A stretch of DNA of 64,000 nt from Candidatus Gastranaerophilales bacterium (GTDB lineage: Bacteria; Cyanobacteriota; Vampirovibrionia; Gastranaerophilales; Gastranaerophilaceae): contig CALVED010000001.1 of NCBI GenBank assembly GCA_944326485.1, forward strand, positions 124,001 through 188,000, given 5' to 3'. The notes beneath the pieces are model-generated. The model did no database searches and had not been told where the DNA came from. It worked only from the letters and a program-made list of their open reading frames with translations. Of the stretch, positions 2,544 to 47,556 are shown piece after piece. The translations under genes and the position numbers were made by a program. Positions within the stretch are counted from its first letter, which is position 1. Each line of letters begins with the position of its first letter.

Positions 2544-3526
2544 TATGCTACTCCAGCTCTCAACAAATCATGAATATGAATCATTCCAATTGGAACATTA
2601 TTATCATCACAAACAGCTAGTGATGTTATAGAATATCTTTCCATTAAAGCAAGTGCTTTAGTTGCCATAGAATCTTGTGAAACTGTCTTTGGATTTAAAG
2701 TCATTACATCTTTTGTTTTTAGGACCGAAACATCAGGATATCGTAATAATATTCTTCTTATATCTCCATCAGTTAAAACTCCTGAAAGTTTACCGTCATT
2801 ACTAATAATTAAGGCACAACCAAGTCTTTTTTTAGTAATTAAATCTACAGTTTCTAAGAATGTATCATCTTCATGAGCTATTGGTAAAAGATTTTTATCT
2901 TTCAACATTAAATCTTTAACCATATACAATATACCTTTACCTAAGGTACCAGATGGATGATACAAAAGAAAATCTTCCTTTGAAAAACCTCTTCTTTTTA
3001 ACAAGCAAACAGCAAGAGCATCACCCATTGCTAAAGTTGCAGTAGTACTTGCTGTTGGAGCTTTTCCCAAAGGACAAGCTTCTTTTTCTACAGAAATATC
3101 AAAATATATATCAGCCATTTTGCCTAAAGTTGAATTTTTATTTCCGGCAAATACAATTAAAGGTACTTCAAATCTTTTTATTAAAGGTAATAAATTTAAT
3201 AACTCTATTGTTTCTCCACTATTAGATATTGCAATAACAACATCTTCTCTGGTTATAATACCAGAATCACCATGTGTGCTTTCCGCCGGATGTAGGAAAT
3301 ATGCAGGCGTACCAGTTGAAGATAAAGTTGCTGCTATTTTTCTTGCTATTAAACCAGATTTACCCATGCCTGTAACAATAACCCTTCCTTTTGAAGAAAT
3401 TATTGTTGAAATTGCATTTTCTAAATTATCATTTAATCTTTCTTTTAATTTTAAGATTGAATCAGCTTCTATTTGAAAAACTTCTTTTGCAAGTTCTTTC
3501 ATTTCTTTTTGTTCTATTACTTCCAC
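2543..3526 (-). CDS. kdsD: Arabinose-5-phosphate isomerase (SIS plus two CBS domains)
   Basis: KdsD converts ribulose-5-phosphate to arabinose-5-phosphate, the first committed precursor of Kdo. The 327-residue protein has an N-terminal SIS domain (about 30-190) with VTGMGKSGLIARKIAATLSS and the STHGDSGII loop. Two CBS motifs follow (about 205-325, for example VLTDGDIRRI and MIHIHDLLRAG). The start is a GTG behind a strong GAGGAAGG site. It is first in a two-gene kdsD-kdsC operon with a one-base overlap. GutQ is a paralogous alternative, but the partner gene favours KdsD. Confidence 0.93.
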   Translation of the reverse strand: MEVIEQKEMKELAKEVFQIEADSILKLKERLNDNLENAISTIISSKGRVIVTGMGKSGLIARKIAATLSSTGTPAYFLHPAESTHGDSGIITREDVVIAISNSGETIELLNLLPLIKRFEVPLIVFAGNKNSTLGKMADIYFDISVEKEACPLGKAPTASTTATLAMGDALAVCLLKRRGFSKEDFLLYHPSGTLGKGILYMVKDLMLKDKNLLPIAHEDDTFLETVDLITKKRLGCALIISNDGKLSGVLTDGDIRRILLRYPDVSVLKTKDVMTLNPKTVSQDSMATKALALMERYSITSLAVCDDNNVPIGMIHIHDLLRAGVA

Positions 3527-7858: not shown

Positions 7859-8965
7859 ATGGAAGAAAAAGATAAGTATTGGTGTGCTTTTGCAAGAATA
7901 AATCAAATTAGTTCCAGCTTTGTAAACAAAGTTTATGAGTATTTTGGTTCAATAGAAAGAGCATGGTTCGCTGAAAAAATTGACTTATATAATATTAACG
8001 GTATACAAAAATCTTCCATCGAAAATTTTATAAAAGAGCGAGTTAAAATCAATCCTCAAGAATGTTATGAATATTTAAAAGAACGTGAAATTGATTTTAT
8101 ACATCCAGAAGATGAAAGATATCCATTCTTACTAAGGAACATAGATAATCCCCCTACCGGGTTATTTATGCTGGGTGATATAAACTTATGTAATCTTAAT
8201 CGAACTCTTGCTGTTGTAGGGTCAAGAAAAGCAAGTGAAAATTCAAAAAGTATATTAAGAAACATCCTTTCCGATTTTGCAAATACAGATATTTGTATAG
8301 TATCTGGTTTGGCTGAAGGTATTGATACTGTAGCACATACAAGTGCTATTGATAATAATATAAAAACAATAGCAGTAATCGGTGGAGGTTTTGATAAATT
8401 ATATCCGCAATCAAATATTAAATTATTCAATAGAATTATAAAAGAAGAAAGAGGAGCAATTTTAACAGAATATTGGCCTGATGTTGATGCTATAAGTTGG
8501 CATTTCCCTGTTAGAAACAGAATTGTATCAGGATTATCAAAAGGAGTTCTAATAGCAGAAGCAGCGATAAAATCAGGTGCAATGATTACAGGAAAATTAG
8601 CACTTGAACAAGGCAGAGAGTTAATGTGTATTCCTGGACTAATATCAAATCCAAATACAAAGGGAATCTATAAATTACTAAAAGAAGGAGCAGGAATTGT
8701 CACTTCATCACAAGATATTCTGGACATTATGAATTGGAAAATAGAAAATAATCCCATTAAAACAAGTAGTAAAAAAAATAATTTAAAGCTATCTGATGAA
8801 GAAATGTCTGTATTAAACTATATAAAACTTGATTCTTTAACAATAGATGAACTAAATATAAAAACTAACTTGAATATTAATAATTTAATGGTAATATTAA
8901 CAAAGTTAGAATTGGAAGGATTAATTTCTCAAACACACGGAGAAAAATATATATTGGTAGAGTAA
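7859..8965 (+). CDS. dprA: DNA-processing protein DprA
   Basis: DprA binds single-stranded DNA taken up during natural transformation and loads RecA on it. The 368-residue protein has an N-terminal helical (SAM-like) region, then the Rossmann core beginning near residue 119 with VVGSRKAS, IVSGLAEGID, AVIGGGFDKLYP and the FPVRNRIVSGLS block. A C-terminal winged-helix (DML1-like) domain runs from about 305 to the end. No Shine-Dalgarno sequence is visible before the ATG. The stop is three bases from topA, so dprA-topA-aroE probably form one transcript. Its presence makes competence possible but does not prove it. Confidence 0.95.
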   Translation: MEEKDKYWCAFARINQISSSFVNKVYEYFGSIERAWFAEKIDLYNINGIQKSSIENFIKERVKINPQECYEYLKEREIDFIHPEDERYPFLLRNIDNPPTGLFMLGDINLCNLNRTLAVVGSRKASENSKSILRNILSDFANTDICIVSGLAEGIDTVAHTSAIDNNIKTIAVIGGGFDKLYPQSNIKLFNRIIKEERGAILTEYWPDVDAISWHFPVRNRIVSGLSKGVLIAEAAIKSGAMITGKLALEQGRELMCIPGLISNPNTKGIYKLLKEGAGIVTSSQDILDIMNWKIENNPIKTSSKKNNLKLSDEEMSVLNYIKLDSLTIDELNIKTNLNINNLMVILTKLELEGLISQTHGEKYILVE

Positions 8966-39196: not shown

Positions 39197-39223
39197 TATT
39201 ATAAAACAATAATAATATTATAT

Positions 39224-39405
39224 TGTCCGAGGAAAAATTCACTATAAACTGAAAGTTTGAGTGAATTTTTTTTATAAAACCAACCACAAACCTTGTTTTT
39301 GAGTGAGTTTGTATCCCTAGTAAAACAAAGATGAGCAGTGCTTTTAAAAAGTGAGTACTTTGTTAGCGAGGATGGCTCGCTAACAAAGTACGATACTAGA
39401 TTAAA
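39224..39405 (+). repeat. Intergenic hairpin repeat, copy B
   Basis: This copy shows both structures best. AAAAATTCACT (39233-39243) pairs with AGTGAATTTTT (39260-39270) and is followed by a T-run. GTACTTTGTTAGCGAG (39355-39370) pairs perfectly with CTCGCTAACAAAGTAC (39376-39391) around a five-base loop. Its right end reaches the stop codon of the adjacent radical SAM gene. Confidence 0.9.
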
Positions 39406-40795
39406 TATTTTCATAATATTTTATAATCTCAGAAAAACTAACTTTTAAATCTTCCTGCTCTTTAAAAAATTTGATTACCCTTTTTATAGAATCTATTTTC
39501 ACATCAATCTCATTTTTTGTTCTATATAAATCTATTTCTATATCTTTAATAAAATATTGTTTACACTTTAAAACTAAAGCATTCAGTTCATCTACACTAT
39601 CATTTATACCTTGCATAATCTTATATTGAATTATTATTTTTGAAGAAGATATAGTATCCTTGTTAACTAATTTAGAATATTTTTCTATGTTCCTCCATAT
39701 ATCATTAAACATATCTGTATTTGTTATTTTTTTGTATGTATTTTCTAATGCTGAAAATAAAATAATTTTCAAAATAGTATTACCGTTTTTTAACGATTGT
39801 TCTATATCAGAAGAATATATTTTTGCAGAAGTTTTTATTTCATAACTTTTTTGGATTAGTTCAGTACTTATTTTCTTATTATTAAGGTTTTCTATATAAT
39901 TGAATAATTTTATTGAATTTATGTGTTTATCCTTATAAATTTTATCTTCTATCAACATCCAATTATAATCAAAATTAACGTAAATATTATCACAACCTAC
40001 CTCATCACACTTTTTTAAGAAAGCATTAAATTCATCTATATTATCATTAATACCATCCAAAATTATGTATTTTAAATATACTTTTGCCAGTGGATTAGCT
40101 TTTGCAACTTTTATATACTTTTTTATATTGGACCATACTTTATCATAATATTTAACTCTTTTTATTTTTTCATAAGTTTCTTTTGTTCCAGAATCTACAG
40201 ATATTGTTAAATTAGAATCATATTTTTTTAAAGCATGTTCAATTTCCTTTGAATAAAACATACCGGAACTAGGAAAATCAATATGAAAATTATTTTCTTT
40301 TGCATAATCAACAATCCACCTTAACTCGTGAGAAGGATATTCACTACAATCTCCACCTTCTAAATATATTGTGCCATTTTGTTTTAGTAGTTTTTTTTCC
40401 GCTAATGTTTCTAATAATGGTCTTATATCATATATTTTTCTGGCATTAAGTTCTTTGCGTTTGTTTAAATCACCTTTAGTTGCAACACAATATATACAAT
40501 TACAAGAACATTTTGATCTATTCGCAATTACTATATAATCTATACCAACACTTTCATCCCATTCATCTTCTTTGAAAAAAACACACTTAATACATTGTTC
40601 AGGAATATTTTTATCTGTCTTACAATTTTTTATAAAATCTTCTCTGGCATTTAAATAAACATCTACAAAATCTTTTTCACCATTGTAATCATTATAAAAG
40701 GATTGTTTGGAGCCAACTAGACAATAACAAAATGATAAAGAATTATTTATAACCATTAAGGAAGATATAGCACTTTTACAACACTTAAATCTCAT
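39401..40795 (-). CDS. Radical SAM protein with duplicated half-barrel, paralogue 1
   Basis: I use the ATG at 40795, giving 464 residues and the same MRFKCC start as its neighbour; a TTG two codons earlier is possible. The CSCNCIYC block (96-103) supplies the cluster cysteines C96, C100 and C103 of a CX3CX2C radical SAM site. A GGD (neighbour: GGE) sits near 149. Extra cysteines at 5-6, 23, 25, 58, 68 and 71 suggest an N-terminal auxiliary-cluster domain, SPASM-like but at the wrong end. The segment at about 184-279 recurs in weaker form at 331-425. A peptide-modifying role is inferred from the adjacent YcaO gene. The right end of repeat B overlaps the stop. Confidence 0.8.
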   Translation of the reverse strand: MRFKCCKSAISSLMVINNSLSFCYCLVGSKQSFYNDYNGEKDFVDVYLNAREDFIKNCKTDKNIPEQCIKCVFFKEDEWDESVGIDYIVIANRSKCSCNCIYCVATKGDLNKRKELNARKIYDIRPLLETLAEKKLLKQNGTIYLEGGDCSEYPSHELRWIVDYAKENNFHIDFPSSGMFYSKEIEHALKKYDSNLTISVDSGTKETYEKIKRVKYYDKVWSNIKKYIKVAKANPLAKVYLKYIILDGINDNIDEFNAFLKKCDEVGCDNIYVNFDYNWMLIEDKIYKDKHINSIKLFNYIENLNNKKISTELIQKSYEIKTSAKIYSSDIEQSLKNGNTILKIILFSALENTYKKITNTDMFNDIWRNIEKYSKLVNKDTISSSKIIIQYKIMQGINDSVDELNALVLKCKQYFIKDIEIDLYRTKNEIDVKIDSIKRVIKFFKEQEDLKVSFSEIIKYYENI

Positions 40796-40854
40796 TTTCA
40801 ACTAAATCCTATTCTAAATGTATATTATACAATATTTTTTTATTTAAAAATGCA

Positions 40855-42249
40855 TTATAAATCAATCAATGATGATATTTCTTTAGAAAAATATATATTT
40901 ATGTCATCTTGTCTTTTTAAAAACTTTATATCTTCAATTAGTTTTTTTATTTTTTCATTATCTAAAGTTTCCTGACTATATATATCAATTTCAATATCTT
41001 TTATACTTAAAGATTTACATTTTTCTAATAATGAATTTAATTCAGATTCACTATCATTAATACCCGGCATTAATTTATAAAGAATTTTTATTTGAGAGTA
41101 TGAAGTAGTAACTTTTCCTACAAAATTAGAATATTTCTGAATATTATTCCATATTTCATCATATAAATTGGTATTTGTAATTTTTTGATAAGTACTTTCT
41201 AATCCTGCAAACAAAATAATATAAACAATTGTATTACCTAACTTCAAATCTTCTTCTATATTTTTTGAATATACCCTGGCCGATGTTTTTTTCTCTTGTA
41301 TTTGTAAAAAGACATCTGAATATATTCTTTTATCGTTTAAAGATTGAATATAAAACAATAAATCAGAAACAGCTTTAGGAATCTGATTTATTCTACCCCC
41401 ATCATCTTGAAGCCAATCTAAATCAACAGAAATATCAATATGATTACAATTTATACTATTACATTTATCCATAAATGCTTTAAATTCATCAATATTATCA
41501 TTTACACCACTCAAAATAATATATTTTGCACATACTTTTGCATCCGGATTTTCTTTAGATACTTCAATATAATTTGCAATATTTGACCAAACTTTATCAA
41601 AATATTTAACTCTTTTTATTTTTTCATACATTTCTTTAGTCCCAGAATCAGGAGAAATTAGAATAGAAGCTTTACCTGTTTTAAGTGCATTAGCTATTTC
41701 ATCGGAGAAAAACATACCTGAACTTGCAAATTCAATTTCCCACCCATGTCCAAATGCAAAATTAATTAACCAATTTAATTCCTCTTTCGGATATTCACTA
41801 CATTCACCGCCAGCTACGAAAATTTTGCCATTATCTTTTAATAATTTATTTTCATCTAATTCTTTTAAAACAGGTATTACATCCCAAATTTCTTGTTTAT
41901 TTAAATTTTTTCTTTTTTCAATATTTCCATCCGAAACAACACAGTATATACAATTACAAGAACAATGAGTTCTATTCGCAATTCCGATTAAATCAATACC
42001 TATGTCTACATTCCAATCCGCATCTACGACCAAAGAACAATTTTGACATTGAAAAGGTATATTTACGCCATTTTGACAATTTGCAATAAATTCTTTTCGA
42101 GCTTTAATATATTTTTCTATAAAATTATTTTCACCTTTGTAATTTTGCCAAAACGCAAATTTTCTTTCAGATAATTTAGGGCAAAAAGATAACGCAGTAT
42201 CTGTAATCATAAATGAAGAAATTGAATGTTGACAACATTTAAATCGCAT
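40855..42249 (-). CDS. Radical SAM protein with duplicated half-barrel, paralogue 2
   Basis: This 464-residue paralogue lies 60 bases upstream of the first. It has CSCNCIYC at 96-103 (CX3CX2C: C96, C100, C103) and AGGEC at 146-150 for SAM binding. An N-terminal Cys-rich segment (C5, C6, C23, C58, C68, C71) comes first. ILISPDSGTKEMYEKIKRVK (197-216) with KYIILSGVNDNIDEF in the first unit is echoed by IILFAGLESTYQKITNTNLY (344-363) with YKLMPGINDSESEL in the second, so the second half of the barrel is duplicated. The start has only a weak ribosome binding site. The gene is divergent from the ycaO-like gene after about 150 bases, with a TATAAT in between. Confidence 0.8.
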   Translation of the reverse strand: MRFKCCQHSISSFMITDTALSFCPKLSERKFAFWQNYKGENNFIEKYIKARKEFIANCQNGVNIPFQCQNCSLVVDADWNVDIGIDLIGIANRTHCSCNCIYCVVSDGNIEKRKNLNKQEIWDVIPVLKELDENKLLKDNGKIFVAGGECSEYPKEELNWLINFAFGHGWEIEFASSGMFFSDEIANALKTGKASILISPDSGTKEMYEKIKRVKYFDKVWSNIANYIEVSKENPDAKVCAKYIILSGVNDNIDEFKAFMDKCNSINCNHIDISVDLDWLQDDGGRINQIPKAVSDLLFYIQSLNDKRIYSDVFLQIQEKKTSARVYSKNIEEDLKLGNTIVYIILFAGLESTYQKITNTNLYDEIWNNIQKYSNFVGKVTTSYSQIKILYKLMPGINDSESELNSLLEKCKSLSIKDIEIDIYSQETLDNEKIKKLIEDIKFLKRQDDINIYFSKEISSLIDL

Positions 42250-42343
42250 TTTACTTTAGTTTCTAATTCTACTCCAGTAATTATATCTTAATTTCTACCA
42301 ATTTAAAAGTTATACAATAAAATTAGTCGTCATTCGAAATTTA

Positions 42344-42372
42344 TTGACTTTTATAAAGTGTTCTGATTAAAT
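42344..42372 (+). promoter_or_regulatory. Putative promoter of the ycaO-like gene
   Basis: TTGACT (42344-42349) and TTAAAT (42367-42372) are 17 bases apart, about 32 bases before the ATG at 42404. Confidence 0.5.
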
Positions 42373-42403
42373 CAAATTGTAATAAATATTGGTTGGACAC
42401 AAA

Positions 42404-44152
42404 ATGATATATGATAAGAAAAAAGATTTAACTCCACAGAATACAGTTGAAAATATAAAATCAATTTTACAAGATATAGGTATTCCTCCACTTGAAGAAA
42501 TGTGTATGGAAAGAATCATAAATGATCACGTAACTGAATCTATATTTCTAAAACTTCCTAATGACATGACAGTAACAGCAAATGGGAAAGGAACAAATTA
42601 TGAATATGCATTAGCCAGTGCATATGGCGAATTTATGGAAAGACTAGAAGTTGGCAACTTATTCCCAATAACCCCGCCTGATCAAATTAAAATAACACCT
42701 AAAGAACTTATAAGTAAAGGTTACTTAAATTTTTGGTTCAATGAAGACTTAAAGAAAGTAGAAAAATATGTAAATATTGCAGTAGATGTATGTTGTAATT
42801 ATACAAACTATATTAATAAAGAAGAAAAAACAGCAGAGTTGTTGCCATTCTATCACGTAAATAAAGATGAAATATCCTATATTTCTCCTAATTTGTTACA
42901 ATATACAGGAGGATTCACAGGTAGTTGCGCAGGAAATACGCCATATGAAGCACTTGTGGAAGGTCTTTCTGAAGTATTTGAAAGACACATCATTAGAAAG
43001 GCAATAAAAGAACCTATATCTTTCCCTGACATACCTGAAGAATTTTATTTAAAATATGAATCAATAAAAAGAATTATTGAATATTGCAGGAAATTAGGAT
43101 TTAAAGTTGTTGTAAAAGATGCATCATTAGGCAAAAAATATCCTGTTGCCTGTGCTGTTTTATTGGATGAAAAGACAAATGGATATTACGTTTGGTTTGG
43201 GGCACATCCTTCACTTCCGATTGCAATAGAAAGATGTTTCACTGAAATTTTCCAAGGCGCTGATTTTAGTAATAAAAATTATGTTAATGCTTTATTCAAG
43301 TTTTCCGGAAGAAGAGATAATATAATTCCTGATGCACGTATGGATAATGCTTTCAATCATAGATTCTTAGAGGTAAATGCTGTGTTCTTCTCTAAAAAAC
43401 CGGACTATTTATTTTCATACGACGATTGGAAAGAAAATGAATCAATATCAAATAAAGATTTATTTAAAAATATGATTAAGATATTAACAGATAAAAAAAT
43501 AGATGTATTTATTAGAGATATATCTTTTTTAAATTTTCCTGCATATATAATATGTGTACCAAAATTAATAAGCACATTAAATAATATAGATATATCCTCA
43601 GGAATAGACATAAGAAATAACTATTATAAAACAGTAAGAGTCATTGGGGAAAACATCCCTATAAATTTAACTCCTCAAGAAGTTCTTGACTTTTTTGAGT
43701 ATGCTTTCCACCTACAAATGCTTATGAAAAATGATTATAAAAATTTTGAATTGGTTTATATAATTACCTTACTAAAAACAAAACAATATCAAAAAATATT
43801 AAATATCATTACTCCGTTAAAAAATTCATTTAAGTATTCAAAATATAAAAAGATGTTCTTGTTCTTAAATGATTACATAAATGCAAAATTCCAAAATATT
43901 TACAATATAGAATATGAAAATAATTTATACAAAAAATACGGAAAACATTTTGTTAAAAAACTAATAGAAATATTCGATACGGATGACTCTTTCCAAAATG
44001 CTATTAATATGCTTAAAAAACATAAATTCTATTATTTAAAACATATAACAGAAGAAAATATTAACAGAAAAAAATATATAAGTGAAAAAATCCTTAAAAA
44101 GTATAAAGAAAATACTCCAAATCAAAAATTAGTAAAAAATTTATTTAATTAA
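42404..44152 (+). CDS. YcaO-domain ATPase, E. coli YcaO-like
   Basis: From the ATG at 42404 the protein is 582 residues (a TTG five codons earlier is the alternative). The YcaO core has GKG (61-63), ASAYGEFMERLE (71-82), CAGNT (175-179), EGLSEVFERH (186-195), FGAHPS (265-270) and AIERCFTEIFQG (274-285). These are the ATP- and magnesium-binding elements. The length and the C-terminal helical extension (about 420-582) match E. coli YcaO rather than the azoline cyclodehydratases, and there is no C-terminal PxPxP. YcaO enzymes activate amide backbones with ATP. No E1-like, ocin-ThiF or TfuA partner is adjacent. Divergent to the radical SAM pair. Confidence 0.88.
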   Translation: MIYDKKKDLTPQNTVENIKSILQDIGIPPLEEMCMERIINDHVTESIFLKLPNDMTVTANGKGTNYEYALASAYGEFMERLEVGNLFPITPPDQIKITPKELISKGYLNFWFNEDLKKVEKYVNIAVDVCCNYTNYINKEEKTAELLPFYHVNKDEISYISPNLLQYTGGFTGSCAGNTPYEALVEGLSEVFERHIIRKAIKEPISFPDIPEEFYLKYESIKRIIEYCRKLGFKVVVKDASLGKKYPVACAVLLDEKTNGYYVWFGAHPSLPIAIERCFTEIFQGADFSNKNYVNALFKFSGRRDNIIPDARMDNAFNHRFLEVNAVFFSKKPDYLFSYDDWKENESISNKDLFKNMIKILTDKKIDVFIRDISFLNFPAYIICVPKLISTLNNIDISSGIDIRNNYYKTVRVIGENIPINLTPQEVLDFFEYAFHLQMLMKNDYKNFELVYIITLLKTKQYQKILNIITPLKNSFKYSKYKKMFLFLNDYINAKFQNIYNIEYENNLYKKYGKHFVKKLIEIFDTDDSFQNAINMLKKHKFYYLKHITEENINRKKYISEKILKKYKENTPNQKLVKNLFN

Positions 44153-45337
44153 CTAAACAATACCTCGGAGTATAGAATATATATCATTTAATACAATCAA
44201 TAAAAATATAATATTAAATGAAGAAAAAGTAATTTTCATAATTTTTTCCATTGTACTCCTTTTTACTGATTTTTTAAATAAATCTCCAGATAAAATAATT
44301 AAAAATTTTCCACCATCAAAAACAGGAATTGGAAATAAATTTATTAATGCCATATTAAGAGATAAAAAAGACATTAACCATAACATTCGAGCACAGCTAC
44401 CATAAAATCCCAGATCTGCACTTATTTTAATTATAGAAAAAATACCTCTAACATCTGTAATACTTATGCTCCCTGTAATTAATTCTTTTAGATAGAAAAA
44501 TAAAATATAAAACTGATTAAATATACCTTTCAAACTATTTTTCACTAGTATAGGAAAAGAACTTATCTTTTCATATTTTTCTTTTACATAAACATTGATA
44601 CCAAGAGAACCATTTTCATTTACATTTATATTATCAATTGATACCTTTTCATTATCCCTTATTACAACAACTTCATTTGAATCTTTTATATCATTAACAT
44701 ATATATCCGGTAAAAATATCAATAATTGATTATTATTGTGACTTAATAATTGTTTATTTCCATTTCTGTATTTTTTTATAGAAGGTTGATATACCCTAAA
44801 ATACTCTTGTAATGCGATTATATCATTAATTCTTTTATTATTTATAGAATATATAATGTCACCTTGTTTTAATTGCTGATTTTTAACATCTATATGTTTC
44901 TGATTTTTAAAAGAATCAATTACAACTTCATAATTATTTAATGGAATGAACTTACAAAATATACCAATAAGTAAAAGGATGAGAAATGAAACACAAATAT
45001 TCATAAAAATTCCCGCTAAAGTAATAAAGGATTTTTGGAAAGAAGTTTTATTTAAAAATCTTTTAGATGAATTCATAGGAAGATCACATTTTGGATTACT
45101 TTCAGGATAGGCAATATAGCCACCAAAAAAGAACAACAAATGTACAATAAACTCTGTATCAAATATTTTCTTTCTAAAAATAATCGGACCACATAGAGGA
45201 AGACCAAATGCAAAACGTTCAACCCTAACACCAAAAAGTTTTGCCGCACAAAAATGTCCTACTTCATGGAATAATATTATTAAACCAATAAAAAATATAG
45301 TTAATAAAATATATAAAAAGAAATGCAAAACTTCCAT
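44153..45337 (-). CDS. M50 site-2 protease-like membrane metallopeptidase
   Basis: The ATG at 45337 gives 394 residues; a TTG seven codons upstream lies closer to GGAG and could be used. The first helix carries the zinc site LFHEVGHFCAAKLFG (HEVGH 24-28). A PDZ-like region runs about 135-235 (QGDIIYSINNKRIN). The second motif near the C-terminus is INLFPIPVFDGGKFL, giving the Asp ligand. Four hydrophobic segments are visible. It resembles RseP/MmpA but is diverged around the GP-N and PDZ parts. It converges with the ycaO-like gene with no gap. It may process a peptide or anti-sigma substrate, or be the housekeeping enzyme. Confidence 0.82.
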   Translation of the reverse strand: MEVLHFFLYILLTIFFIGLIILFHEVGHFCAAKLFGVRVERFAFGLPLCGPIIFRKKIFDTEFIVHLLFFFGGYIAYPESNPKCDLPMNSSKRFLNKTSFQKSFITLAGIFMNICVSFLILLLIGIFCKFIPLNNYEVVIDSFKNQKHIDVKNQQLKQGDIIYSINNKRINDIIALQEYFRVYQPSIKKYRNGNKQLLSHNNNQLLIFLPDIYVNDIKDSNEVVVIRDNEKVSIDNINVNENGSLGINVYVKEKYEKISSFPILVKNSLKGIFNQFYILFFYLKELITGSISITDVRGIFSIIKISADLGFYGSCARMLWLMSFLSLNMALINLFPIPVFDGGKFLIILSGDLFKKSVKRSTMEKIMKITFSSFNIIFLLIVLNDIYSILRGIV

Positions 45338-45404
45338 ATATAAATTCTTTCTCCACAAATCACATAAATAATTATCTCATAAATTATTAATATATAAAAT
45401 TGTC

Positions 45405-45581
45405 TGTCCGAGAAAAAATTCAAGATAAGCTGAAAGTGTGCGTATTTTTTTATAAAATGAACTAAAAACTTTGTTTTTGAGTGAGCTTGTATCCGTAGTT
45501 AAACGAAAGTGAGTGATGTTTTAAAAATGTGAATACTTTGTTAACGAGGATGACACGGTAAGAAAGTTTAATACGAGATTA
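45405..45581 (+). repeat. Intergenic hairpin repeat, copy C
   Basis: TGTCCGAGAAAAAATTC, GATAAGCTGAAAGTG, the TTTTTTTATAAAATGAACTAA run and TACTTTGTTAACGAGGATGACACGGTAAGAAAGTTTAATACGAG (in outline) occur in the family order. The second hairpin is more eroded than in copy B. It separates the protease gene from the small peptide gene. Confidence 0.8.
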
Positions 45582-45593
45582 GTTTATAAAAAA

Positions 45594-45620
45594 AAGAAAC
45601 CAGTGAAATACTGGTTTCTT
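45594..45620 (-). terminator. Terminator of the 60-residue peptide gene
   Basis: AAGAAACCAGT (45594-45604) pairs perfectly with ACTGGTTTCTT (45610-45620). On the minus strand it is followed by a run of eight T. It lies 24 bases after the peptide stop. Confidence 0.85.
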
Positions 45621-45643
45621 TTATCAATATAATAAACTAAGCT

Positions 45644-45826
45644 TTATAGTCCTATTCCATATATAGTAACACCATATACAGATGAACCCCATTTGGCAAT
45701 TAGGTAATTATTAACATCTACTTGATCACCATCAACACCAAATAGAAATATATCGTCTGAATTATCTGAATTATTAGTATCTACTGATTTTAAATTTTTT
45801 ATATCTTCTGGATTTATATCATACAT
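45644..45826 (-). CDS. 60-residue peptide, candidate modified-peptide precursor
   Basis: An ideal AAAGGAGA lies nine bases before the ATG. The peptide has an acidic, helix-capable first 40 residues (MYDINPEDIKNLKSVD, then NSDDIFLF) and a sharply different last 20: YLIAKWGSSVYGVTIYGIGL, rich in Gly, aromatic, Ser/Thr and beta-branched residues with no cysteine. That leader/core contrast, the monocistronic layout and the strong terminator fit a RiPP precursor. Its neighbours (YcaO, two radical SAM proteins, M50 protease) could modify or process it. No double-glycine cleavage motif precedes the core. An ordinary small protein is the alternative. Confidence 0.6.
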   Translation of the reverse strand: MYDINPEDIKNLKSVDTNNSDNSDDIFLFGVDGDQVDVNNYLIAKWGSSVYGVTIYGIGL

Positions 45827-45943
45827 AATTAAATCTCCTTTTACCTTATAATAACATATTTCCCTAAATTTAACAATAAATCTAGGTTTTATATATAATA
45901 TTTAATAAAATTTTACAACAAATAATAGTTATAAAAAGCTAAT

Positions 45944-46600
45944 TTAAATACAAACAGACATATTTTTTATAACTCTTCCAATAACCTTAAAATCTATTTT
46001 TTTAAGATCTGATAAGTTATATAATATTTCTTCATAATTTTTATTCATATAAAAGAATTTAACAGAACCATCAATATTTTGCTTTATTCCATTAACAAAG
46101 ATAAAATTATCATTTCTTGTAGTATAAGCATATATACCACTTAACATTATATTATTTTCTGATAAATCAAGGACTAACATATCTTGATTTCTAATTGGTT
46201 CAATTCCACCATCCATAGAATCACCCGTCATTTGCATTATTCTCAAATCATTTTCATTTTTTTTCCATATATCGTGAACCAATATACTATCAAGCCATAT
46301 GCTTAAAAATCTAGGATTTTTTATGGAGGAAATAAGATTAGGATTTTCATAATGTTTAATTTCAACAGTATCAACGACAGAATGACTGTCTGTATTTATA
46401 AACATATTTCCCTCACCGGTCAATAACCAATTAATATTTACATTCATATTTTCATATAATTTTATAAAGAAATCAGCAGAAGGTTTATTTTCACCTCTTT
46501 CATACTTACTGAGCTGCTGTTGTAAAATACCCATTTTACTTGCAAATTCGCCTTGTTGCATATCTAAAGCTGCTCTTATTTGTTTTAATCGATTTTTCAT
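45944..46600 (-). CDS. CI/LexA-like repressor: HTH_XRE plus S24 domain
   Basis: The N-terminal HTH (LKQIRAALDMQQGEFASKMG, then LSKYERGENKPSADF, about 5-45) and WLLTGEGNMF are classic CI-type. The C-terminal S24 domain shows QMTGDSMDGGIEPIRNQDML (Ser near 129). The position of the catalytic lysine (usually V-K-R) reads V-N-G, so self-cleavage may be lost. Two ATG codons lie in tandem; I chose the one at 46600 because AGGTGA abuts the other. It probably binds the palindrome inside the promoter just upstream, which faces the NarL-type gene. Confidence 0.82.
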   Translation of the reverse strand: MKNRLKQIRAALDMQQGEFASKMGILQQQLSKYERGENKPSADFFIKLYENMNVNINWLLTGEGNMFINTDSHSVVDTVEIKHYENPNLISSIKNPRFLSIWLDSILVHDIWKKNENDLRIMQMTGDSMDGGIEPIRNQDMLVLDLSENNIMLSGIYAYTTRNDNFIFVNGIKQNIDGSVKFFYMNKNYEEILYNLSDLKKIDFKVIGRVIKNMSVCI

Positions 46601-46625
46601 CATTCACCTATCTTTATAAAAAGTA

Positions 46626-46654
46626 TTGACTTAAAAACTAATTAGTTGTATATT
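46626..46654 (+). promoter_or_regulatory. Promoter with palindromic operator in the spacer
   Basis: TTGACT (46626-46631), a 17-base spacer and TATATT (46649-46654) form a good sigma70-type promoter facing the response-regulator gene. The spacer contains the perfect palindrome AACTAATTAGTT (46636-46647), placed 35 bases upstream of the repressor start. A further inverted repeat, TTAAAATTAAA/TTTAATTTTAA, lies at 46770-46795 in the 5' leader. Confidence 0.55.
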
Positions 46655-46866
46655 ACATAATATAATATTAAACGGTTTGTTTTAAATTAACTATCCGGAA
46701 TAAATAACATAACAAAATATAATATTTACACTACTCCAATTTAATCATGTTGGTTTAAAAGCTATGTGGTTAAAATTAAATTTGTTTAATTTTAAACTAA
46801 TGTTACTAAAAATAAATAATATATGCAAGGATTTAACAAACTATTTATTATGCAGAGAGAGAAATA

Positions 46867-47556
46867 ATGATTGAATATAATGAACCCTGCAAAGAAATTA
46901 GAACACTAATAGTACAAAAATATACATTTGAAAGACTTGGGTTAAAAAATACGTTAAAAAACTATTCGTTTATAAATGTTATAGGGGATACTTCCAGCGG
47001 TACAGAAGCAATCAAAATAATTTTACAAAAACAACCTGATATTGTAATAATGGATTTATTTATTGAAAAGAAAGAAAGAATAAATCTTATAAAACAAATA
47101 AAATATAAATTTAAAAATATAAAAATAATAATACTTACAGATCATACACAACCTGAAGATATAATTTTAGCAACAAATTCCGGAGTTAGTGCATATTGTA
47201 TTAAGAATATAGCACCAAAAACTCTTTCTAGTGTAATAAAGAATGTTGCAATGGGCGCTAATTGGATTGATCCATATATTTCATTAGGTGCATTAAATTT
47301 TATAAATAATTCTAAAAAGAATATTATAGAGAACAATAAATCAGAAGAAAAATATACAAATATAAATTTAACTGAAAGAGAACTTGAGGTTTTAAAACAT
47401 CTTGTTTCAGGCAAAAGTAACTCTGAAATTGCAAAAGCATTAATAGTTAGTGTTCATACAGCAAAAGCACATGTATGTAATATTTTTCAAAAAATGTGCG
47501 TAGAAGATAGAGTTCAAGCAGCAGTAAAAGCAATTAGAGAACATATAGTAAATTAA
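46867..47556 (+). CDS. NarL/FixJ-type response regulator with altered acidic pocket
   Basis: The receiver domain (about 10-128) keeps the phospho-Asp in IVIMDLF (D63), the Thr/Ser position (T91) and the Lys in YCIKN (K113). The usual acidic pair after the first strand is replaced by Gln17-Lys18 (LIVQKYTF). The LuxR-type HTH (about 165-228) is well preserved: LTERELEVLKHLVSGKSNSEIAKAL and VHTAKAHVCNIFQKM. Loss of the Mg-binding acids suggests it may not be controlled by normal phosphorylation. GAGAGAG precedes the ATG. No histidine kinase is nearby. It has an unusually long leader from the promoter at 46626. Confidence 0.88.
   Translation: MIEYNEPCKEIRTLIVQKYTFERLGLKNTLKNYSFINVIGDTSSGTEAIKIILQKQPDIVIMDLFIEKKERINLIKQIKYKFKNIKIIILTDHTQPEDIILATNSGVSAYCIKNIAPKTLSSVIKNVAMGANWIDPYISLGALNFINNSKKNIIENNKSEEKYTNINLTERELEVLKHLVSGKSNSEIAKALIVSVHTAKAHVCNIFQKMCVEDRVQAAVKAIREHIVN

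Follow-up and report, generated by a model that had tools for sequence, protein, structure and literature searches.

A candidate peptide, YcaO and M50 protease maturation unit at an exchangeable site in a Gastranaerophilales genome

What would an E. coli-type YcaO enzyme do beside a short peptide gene, a membrane protease and two radical S-adenosylmethionine (SAM) proteins, and which of these genes work together? We addressed this question for a locus in a 64,000-nucleotide stretch of DNA from Candidatus Gastranaerophilales bacterium, hereafter the window (G000:C1:124001-188000 within a 1.9-Mb assembly, by whole-genome search). A first-pass annotation of the letters alone had read the whole locus as one dedicated pathway of peptide modification. 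The comparisons below favor a smaller set, since the peptide gene, YcaO and the M50 protease recur together in a second species, and we consider it probable that these three form a maturation unit of the type that makes ribosomally synthesized and post-translationally modified peptides (RiPPs). The gene inventory of the earlier annotation was borne out by the list of open reading frames (ORFs) and by Pfam/NCBIfam, all seven genes being present with the coordinates and families described:

39401..40801, minus strand: radical SAM protein a (Pfam/NCBIfam), tandem paralogue (51%) of b; candidate pathway member
40855..42249, minus strand: radical SAM protein b, with four extra N-terminal Cys and a degenerate second half-barrel; candidate pathway member
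42404..44152, plus strand: YcaO, by family an ATP-dependent backbone-modifying enzyme, 582 residues, E. coli YcaO architecture, isoelectric point (pI) 8.6
44153..45358, minus strand: M50 site-2-type protease, RseP-like, with HEVGH and DGG; an extra copy besides the housekeeping RseP
45644..45826, minus strand: candidate precursor peptide, 60 residues, acidic, Cys-free, with a ribosome binding site; homologue in G002 beside YcaO and M50
45835..45840, minus strand: ribosome binding site AAGGAG of the peptide gene, from the sequence
45587..45622, minus strand: intrinsic terminator of the peptide gene, z -6.2
45944..46603, minus strand: CI-like helix-turn-helix (HTH)/S24 regulator, which flanks the exchangeable cargo at its head and is no part of it
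46867..47556, plus strand: NarL-type regulator, divergent from the CI gene and its partner; likewise a flanking gene outside the cargo
39208..39412, no strand: dispersed repeat copy of about 200 bp, in the left border region of the cargo
45386..45587, no strand: second copy of the dispersed repeat, between the M50 and peptide genes

The YcaO ORF spans 42389-44152 on the plus strand, its true start being probably the ATG at 42404, and the M50 protein probably begins seven codons downstream of its TTG, a small correction to the first-pass gene model.

The peptide gene and its recurrence with YcaO and an M50 protease

The AAGGAG of the 60-residue peptide gene lies 8 nt ahead of its ATG, and its terminator has a folding energy of -21.3 kcal/mol (z -6.2, no shuffle being as good). 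The product, which has no family match in Pfam/NCBIfam, can be divided into a candidate leader of about residues 1-42 (LFGVD..VDVNNYLI) and a candidate core, AKWGSSVYGVTIYGIGL. When all called genes of the YcaO loci fetched from relatives were compared with the window genes, a homologue of 62 residues was found in genome G002 (locus L059), with 40% identity over 50 residues (E 2e-7); the pair scores 81, the mean after shuffling being 28, and 0 of 2000 shuffles did as well. Because this homologue exists, we take the 60-residue ORF to be a real gene. Cys is absent from both peptides, which, judged from their sequences, excludes thiazolines and sactionine (thioether) bridges inside the peptide. 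Ser and Thr occur in both cores (WGSSVYGVT in the window, SKGIYGIT in G002).

Among 41 congeneric genomes the peptide was found only in G000, the window's own genome, and in G002, each time within 2 kb of a YcaO gene with a converging M50 gene. A two-sequence profile gave no convincing third copy in these genomes, a peptide-only search of the family returned weak matches that nearly all lay inside larger frames, and the profile had no match in viral contigs. A 'FDDDFY'-type peptide was also considered as a homologue of the window type, and the shuffle-based comparison did not support it.

In G002 the peptide gene stands beside YcaO and divergent from it, and the M50 gene converges on YcaO as it does in the window. 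The site is unrelated: the window locus lies upstream of nusB, and in G002 nusB belongs to another contig and has different genes upstream. G000 and G002 each hold the locus M50 protein in addition to an ordinary RseP of 460 residues, and G021 holds RseP only. Both locus proteases have HExxH and DGG conserved in a chain shorter than that of RseP, and the one of G002 scores 160 bits to the window M50 protein versus 71 bits to the RseP of its own genome. Around the G002 trio there are two SPASM genes whose nearest relatives are RiPP maturases, an aminotransferase gene and a gene for a TupA-like ATP-grasp protein. These comparisons support the recurrence of peptide, YcaO and extra M50 protease as a trio, at an unrelated site of another species and amid RiPP-type enzymes. 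The same G002 locus (L059 3-8062) also carries five similar B12-type radical SAM genes in tandem, and the one that was tested is nearest to RiPP C-methyltransferases.

Two features of RiPP loci are thus present: a short precursor gene that recurs beside a modifying enzyme (G000, G002) and a modifying enzyme, YcaO, with conserved active-site residues. In the maturation unit that we consider probable, the acidic 60-residue peptide would be the precursor, and the stand-alone YcaO would phosphorylate a backbone amide in its C-terminal part. The amide would then most likely become a thioamide with external sulfide, and less likely an oxazoline or amidine. The membrane-embedded M50 protease may finally cut the leader from the product, as for EpeP. 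EpeP, an M50 protease, is thought to cut the leader of epipeptides, whose epeXEPAB genes encode the peptide, a radical SAM epimerase, EpeP and an ATP-binding cassette (ABC) transporter. The window shares with that system a short peptide, an M50 protease and radical SAM proteins; it differs in the presence of YcaO, the lack of an ABC gene among the neighbors scanned, a peptide without family match and radical SAM proteins of another subfamily, and so does not show the full epipeptide set. Pearlins, with the M50 proteases TglG and TmoG (PMC10885120), are another case of M50 proteases acting on a modified peptide, as would be the case in the window, which differs in that it contains YcaO and that no enzyme of the aminoacyl-tRNA ligase type was seen at the locus.

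The radical SAM pair, the regulators and other YcaO loci

The single pathway proposed by the first-pass annotation also included the two radical SAM proteins, so that YcaO would act on the backbone and the pair on side chains or on Tyr/Trp/Ile cross-links of the same peptide. We hold this fuller scheme to be possible rather than probable. The pair is divergent from YcaO, 139 bp away, and inside the exchangeable cargo. Both proteins contain CxxxCxxC and four more invariant Cys in the N-terminal part (C6, C23, C68, C71), as well as a feature that had gone unmentioned, a C-terminal repeat of the second half-barrel that is degenerate and lacks the Cys motif. This extra half-barrel sets them apart from nearly all other family members in G000, which are shorter and match the first two thirds only. 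The nearest folds, mainly over the barrel, are SuiB, pyruvate formate-lyase (PFL)-activating enzyme and SkfB, and radical SAM maturases of other subfamilies are found at other YcaO loci.

On the other side, the family has 37 members in the 1.9-Mb genome, many of them in a region of sugar-nucleotide and glycosyltransferase genes, and no pair of the window type lies next to the G002 trio. By a rough chance estimate, about one family neighbor would be expected among about 60 YcaO neighbor slots, versus two seen. The second of these touches the sister YcaO on contig 3, beside ribH, and was rejected as evidence of a link between radical SAM and YcaO, since it follows ribH in four relatives that have no YcaO there. 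With 37 copies and a ribH-linked member independent of YcaO, the closeness of a family member to YcaO is weak evidence, and the pair may at most add a side-chain or C-C modification.

Many family members stand in tandem arrays (L038-L040, L044, L045) in a region that by eye is rich in glycosyltransferase and sugar-nucleotide genes, and a related metagenome-assembled genome (MAG) has about nine within 11 kb (L036). The named records that hold relatives of the pair are a Gastranaerophilales MAG and a 'Cyanobacteria bacterium' MAG.

The CI-like and NarL-type regulators, which had likewise been counted into the pathway, fit it less well. In G024 the flanking proteins are 94-98% identical to those of the window, and DNA identity ends at the DUF4186 stop codon (39196) and resumes at the CI stop codon (45942). 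The exchange of cargo is exact (window 39197-45941 versus L135 3712-12938), with near-identical flanks and the CI/NarL pair kept on the right, where it is more diverged than the flanks. In place of the five window genes G024 has genes for a decarboxylase-like protein, four B12-type radical SAM proteins (one of the four tested by Pfam), a GNAT-like protein, an unassigned protein and a methyltransferase. Peptide, YcaO and M50 genes are absent from this site and the CI gene is kept, while G030 has a CI/NarL-type pair without cargo of such kind. A role of the two regulators as part of the pathway is weakened by their persistence through the swap and their occurrence without cargo; they may control the genes behind them, yet are not specific to the pathway. 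Of the dispersed repeat, about 170-200 bp long, G000 and G024 each have about 40 or more copies, and none was found in G002. The idea of one dedicated pathway is thus supported for peptide, YcaO and M50 protease, given the trio in G002, and not supported for the CI/NarL pair (G024, G030) or, with 37 copies and a YcaO-independent ribH member, for both radical SAM proteins.

The earlier annotation had suggested a survey of gene neighborhoods in relatives as a check. Besides the recurrence of the trio, without an adjoining radical SAM pair, this survey brought up six other YcaO loci with unrelated short-peptide candidates, most of them with radical SAM and TupA-like ATP-grasp genes; that other YcaOs have short peptide genes beside them also speaks for the unit. 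Three (L054, L057 and L063) have Cys-containing peptides and SPASM radical SAM proteins with good scores to the subtilosin maturase AlbA, among others; in L068 a gene for an acidic Cys-rich peptide lies between an ATP-grasp and a radical SAM gene; and L061 and L071 have homologous peptides (score 159 versus 29 when shuffled) near B12 radical SAM genes. The YcaO tree groups L054/L057/L063 (support 98) and L061/L071 (99). The L061 and L071 peptides (7966-8148 and 2838-3014) are Cys-free, end in TYS[ND]AG[RK]Y[FY]FTYK, come from two genera and lie near YcaO and TupA-like ATP-grasp genes, as a separate precursor family. A TupA-like ATP-grasp gene occurs within five genes at 7 of 8 peptide-candidate loci and at 0 of 17 others (Fisher 1.7e-5), for locus sets that were defined post hoc and in which several loci are truncated at a contig end; the one peptide-candidate locus without such a gene is that of the window. 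Electrostatic matching of a basic YcaO with an acidic peptide was tried as a general rule and failed, three Cys-containing peptides being basic as well.

The YcaO enzyme and its likely chemistry

The equivalents of E. coli YcaO residues K9, E75, E78, N187, E191, E199, E202, R203, R286 and E290, which we take to be ATP/Mg ligands, are kept in the window enzyme, with S16 replaced by Thr, and nearly all of the 29 YcaO sequences compared keep these positions, Ser16 excepted. The structural model (mean predicted local distance difference test, pLDDT, of 84) aligns with E. coli YcaO from end to end and better than with any other YcaO, the closest folds being 4q84-86. E. coli YcaO thioamidates uL16 (Met82) (Rice et al. 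2026; PMC13063428), so its native role, called poorly known in the first-pass annotation, can now be named; the window enzyme is without the acidic signature of that group.

Likeness to E. coli YcaO (PDB 4q84-4q86; PMC13063428) covers the full architecture with the C-terminal helical domain, the ATP/Mg residues and the lack of a RiPP recognition element (RRE) or TfuA partner. The E. coli enzyme has no RRE or TfuA nearby and its group is strongly acidic, with few non-acidic members, which sit in RiPP-like contexts (PMC13063428). The window enzyme has the full-length fold of the uL16-type group and differs from it in other respects. It is 22% identical to E. coli YcaO (114 of 509 aligned residues), its pI is 8.6 versus 4.4, it reaches 207 bits with the NF040716 equivalog model, whose cut-off is 700, and it adjoins a peptide gene and an M50 gene. 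Its distribution is sporadic, with YcaO in 18 of 147 relatives and in 15 of 383 genomes of the order, and not general in the lineage. Given the basic pI and patchy distribution, it is therefore not the uL16-thioamidating housekeeping enzyme; by these tests it is E. coli-like in build and outside the uL16 group.

The E1-like and TfuA partners are indeed missing, as the earlier annotation had said: Pfam/NCBIfam found no E1-like or ocin-ThiF domain among the neighboring genes scanned and no TfuA among the same genes, the rest of the genome not having been searched, and no RRE partner was seen near the window YcaO. The fold and the missing partner proteins make a thioamide our first guess for the product of the unit, although we rate it as nearly an even call, leaning slightly against. 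Thioamitides and other TfuA-type thioamidated RiPPs share with the window a possible YcaO-made backbone thioamide, and the window has no TfuA next to the gene.

The same peptide, YcaO and M50 unit could instead yield oxazolines or methyloxazolines, for which both cores offer Ser and Thr, or an amidine, as amidine-forming YcaO is known from radical SAM clusters (Bacteroidales ItfB; PMC10352776). We think these products somewhat unlikely, since the scanned neighborhood has no E1-like partner and the nearest fold is that of the thioamide-forming E. coli enzyme. Azol(in)e RiPPs (linear azol(in)e-containing peptides, LAP, and thiazole/oxazole-modified microcins, TOMM) have an E1-like/ocin-ThiF partner that is lacking at the window locus, and thiazole-type azolines and sactipeptides need precursor Cys, which neither the window nor the G002 peptide provides. 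The ItfB-type clusters (PMC10352776) share with the window a YcaO, radical SAM proteins and a peptide of about 60 residues; in the window no peptidase-containing ABC transporter (PCAT) exporter or GG leader was seen, an M50 protease is present instead, and the YcaO is of the E. coli type.

Mobile YcaO genes and the meaning of the locus

YcaO could also be a solo, horizontally moving gene with coincidental neighbors, modifying a protein or peptide encoded elsewhere, be it uL16 or another. Its relatives give this idea some substance. Compared with G024, the sister YcaO on contig 3 is a clean one-gene insertion of 1.76 kb beside a probable tRNA gene (L042 8904-10667 versus L188 3946-3953, about 8 bp being common to both borders), and a third, on contig 2, shares a clean insertion of 5.4 kb, placed between nrdG and gltX, with ADP-ribosylation genes, a pair of families that Pfam also finds in L065. 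In G297 four YcaOs stand nearly in tandem with one housekeeping gene, kdsA-like by eye, between them (L117 4775-13043). These insertions and the G297 tandem thus imply that many YcaOs here are without a substrate gene in cis. As an account of the window enzyme, however, we find solo movement improbable, because the peptide and the extra M50 protease accompany YcaO at two unrelated sites, and uL16 as the substrate is at odds with a pI of 8.6 and with YcaO in only 18 of 147 relatives.

Several points nevertheless weigh against the maturation unit. Peptide, YcaO and M50 genes are not one operon, YcaO being on the other strand, and no exporter or immunity gene was seen adjoining the window locus. 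The trio is known in two instances only, and the two YcaOs, 33% identical, are not sisters in the YcaO tree. The other two YcaOs of G000 are insertions without a peptide candidate, and most YcaOs of the genus have none nearby. Solo insertions of this kind make the association in the window less telling without cancelling it, its basis being that the trio recurs. We regard as very improbable an RseP-like circuit with the CI-like repressor, in which the M50 protease would cut the peptide as a small regulator, a toxin or a signal of membrane stress and YcaO would be unrelated. In its favor, the protease is RseP-like and the peptide gene lies behind the CI gene in the same orientation, but the G002 peptide gene is not beside a CI gene and is instead divergent from YcaO, and the G024 site keeps the CI gene without peptide, YcaO or M50 protease.

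The nrdG-gltX interval is an insertion hot spot (L043, L065, L058, L060, L066, L067, L072) that holds YcaO, ADP-ribosyltransferase and ADP-ribosylglycohydrolase genes, or others, and in L065 and L072 a stray 5' gltX fragment lies next to YcaO. E. coli ycaO lies upstream of focA-pflB, which encodes a glycyl radical enzyme (L130), and several YcaOs here adjoin nrdDG, which encodes another. As a functional partner nrdDG was rejected, because nrdG and gltX are side by side in G024 and G014 and the YcaO insert is clean; these empty sites suggest that the glycyl-radical adjacency is coincidental. A YcaO search of phages and plasmids returned chromosomal-type YcaOs only; one viral contig that carries phage-like genes has a 608-residue YcaO (32%) at its edge (L196 1-1827).

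YcaO with radical SAM proteins in RiPP loci (PMC10352776) and M50 proteases in RiPPs (PMC10885120) are already known, and nothing specific was found in the literature on YcaO with M50 proteases or on YcaO in Melainabacteria. Within the literature searched, neither the combination nor the lineage nor the peptide families had a precedent. Whether the maturation unit amounts to a new RiPP class of these non-photosynthetic gut relatives of cyanobacteria is a bolder proposal, which we make tentatively and regard as doubtful; such a class would be defined by a YcaO of E. coli type that is basic, stands alone and has neither RRE nor TfuA, a Cys-free acidic peptide and release by a dedicated M50 protease, while related YcaOs move singly and may act in trans.

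E. coli-type YcaOs have only just been linked to a substrate, one ribosomal protein. If the maturation unit is real, the same architecture has been turned to short, fast-changing peptides, which would show the passage of a backbone-modifying enzyme between protein and peptide substrates. The three-gene set of peptide, YcaO and M50 protease would then be a simple system for partner-free backbone modification, and might supply modified peptides in a gut lineage for which the literature searched describes no RiPPs.

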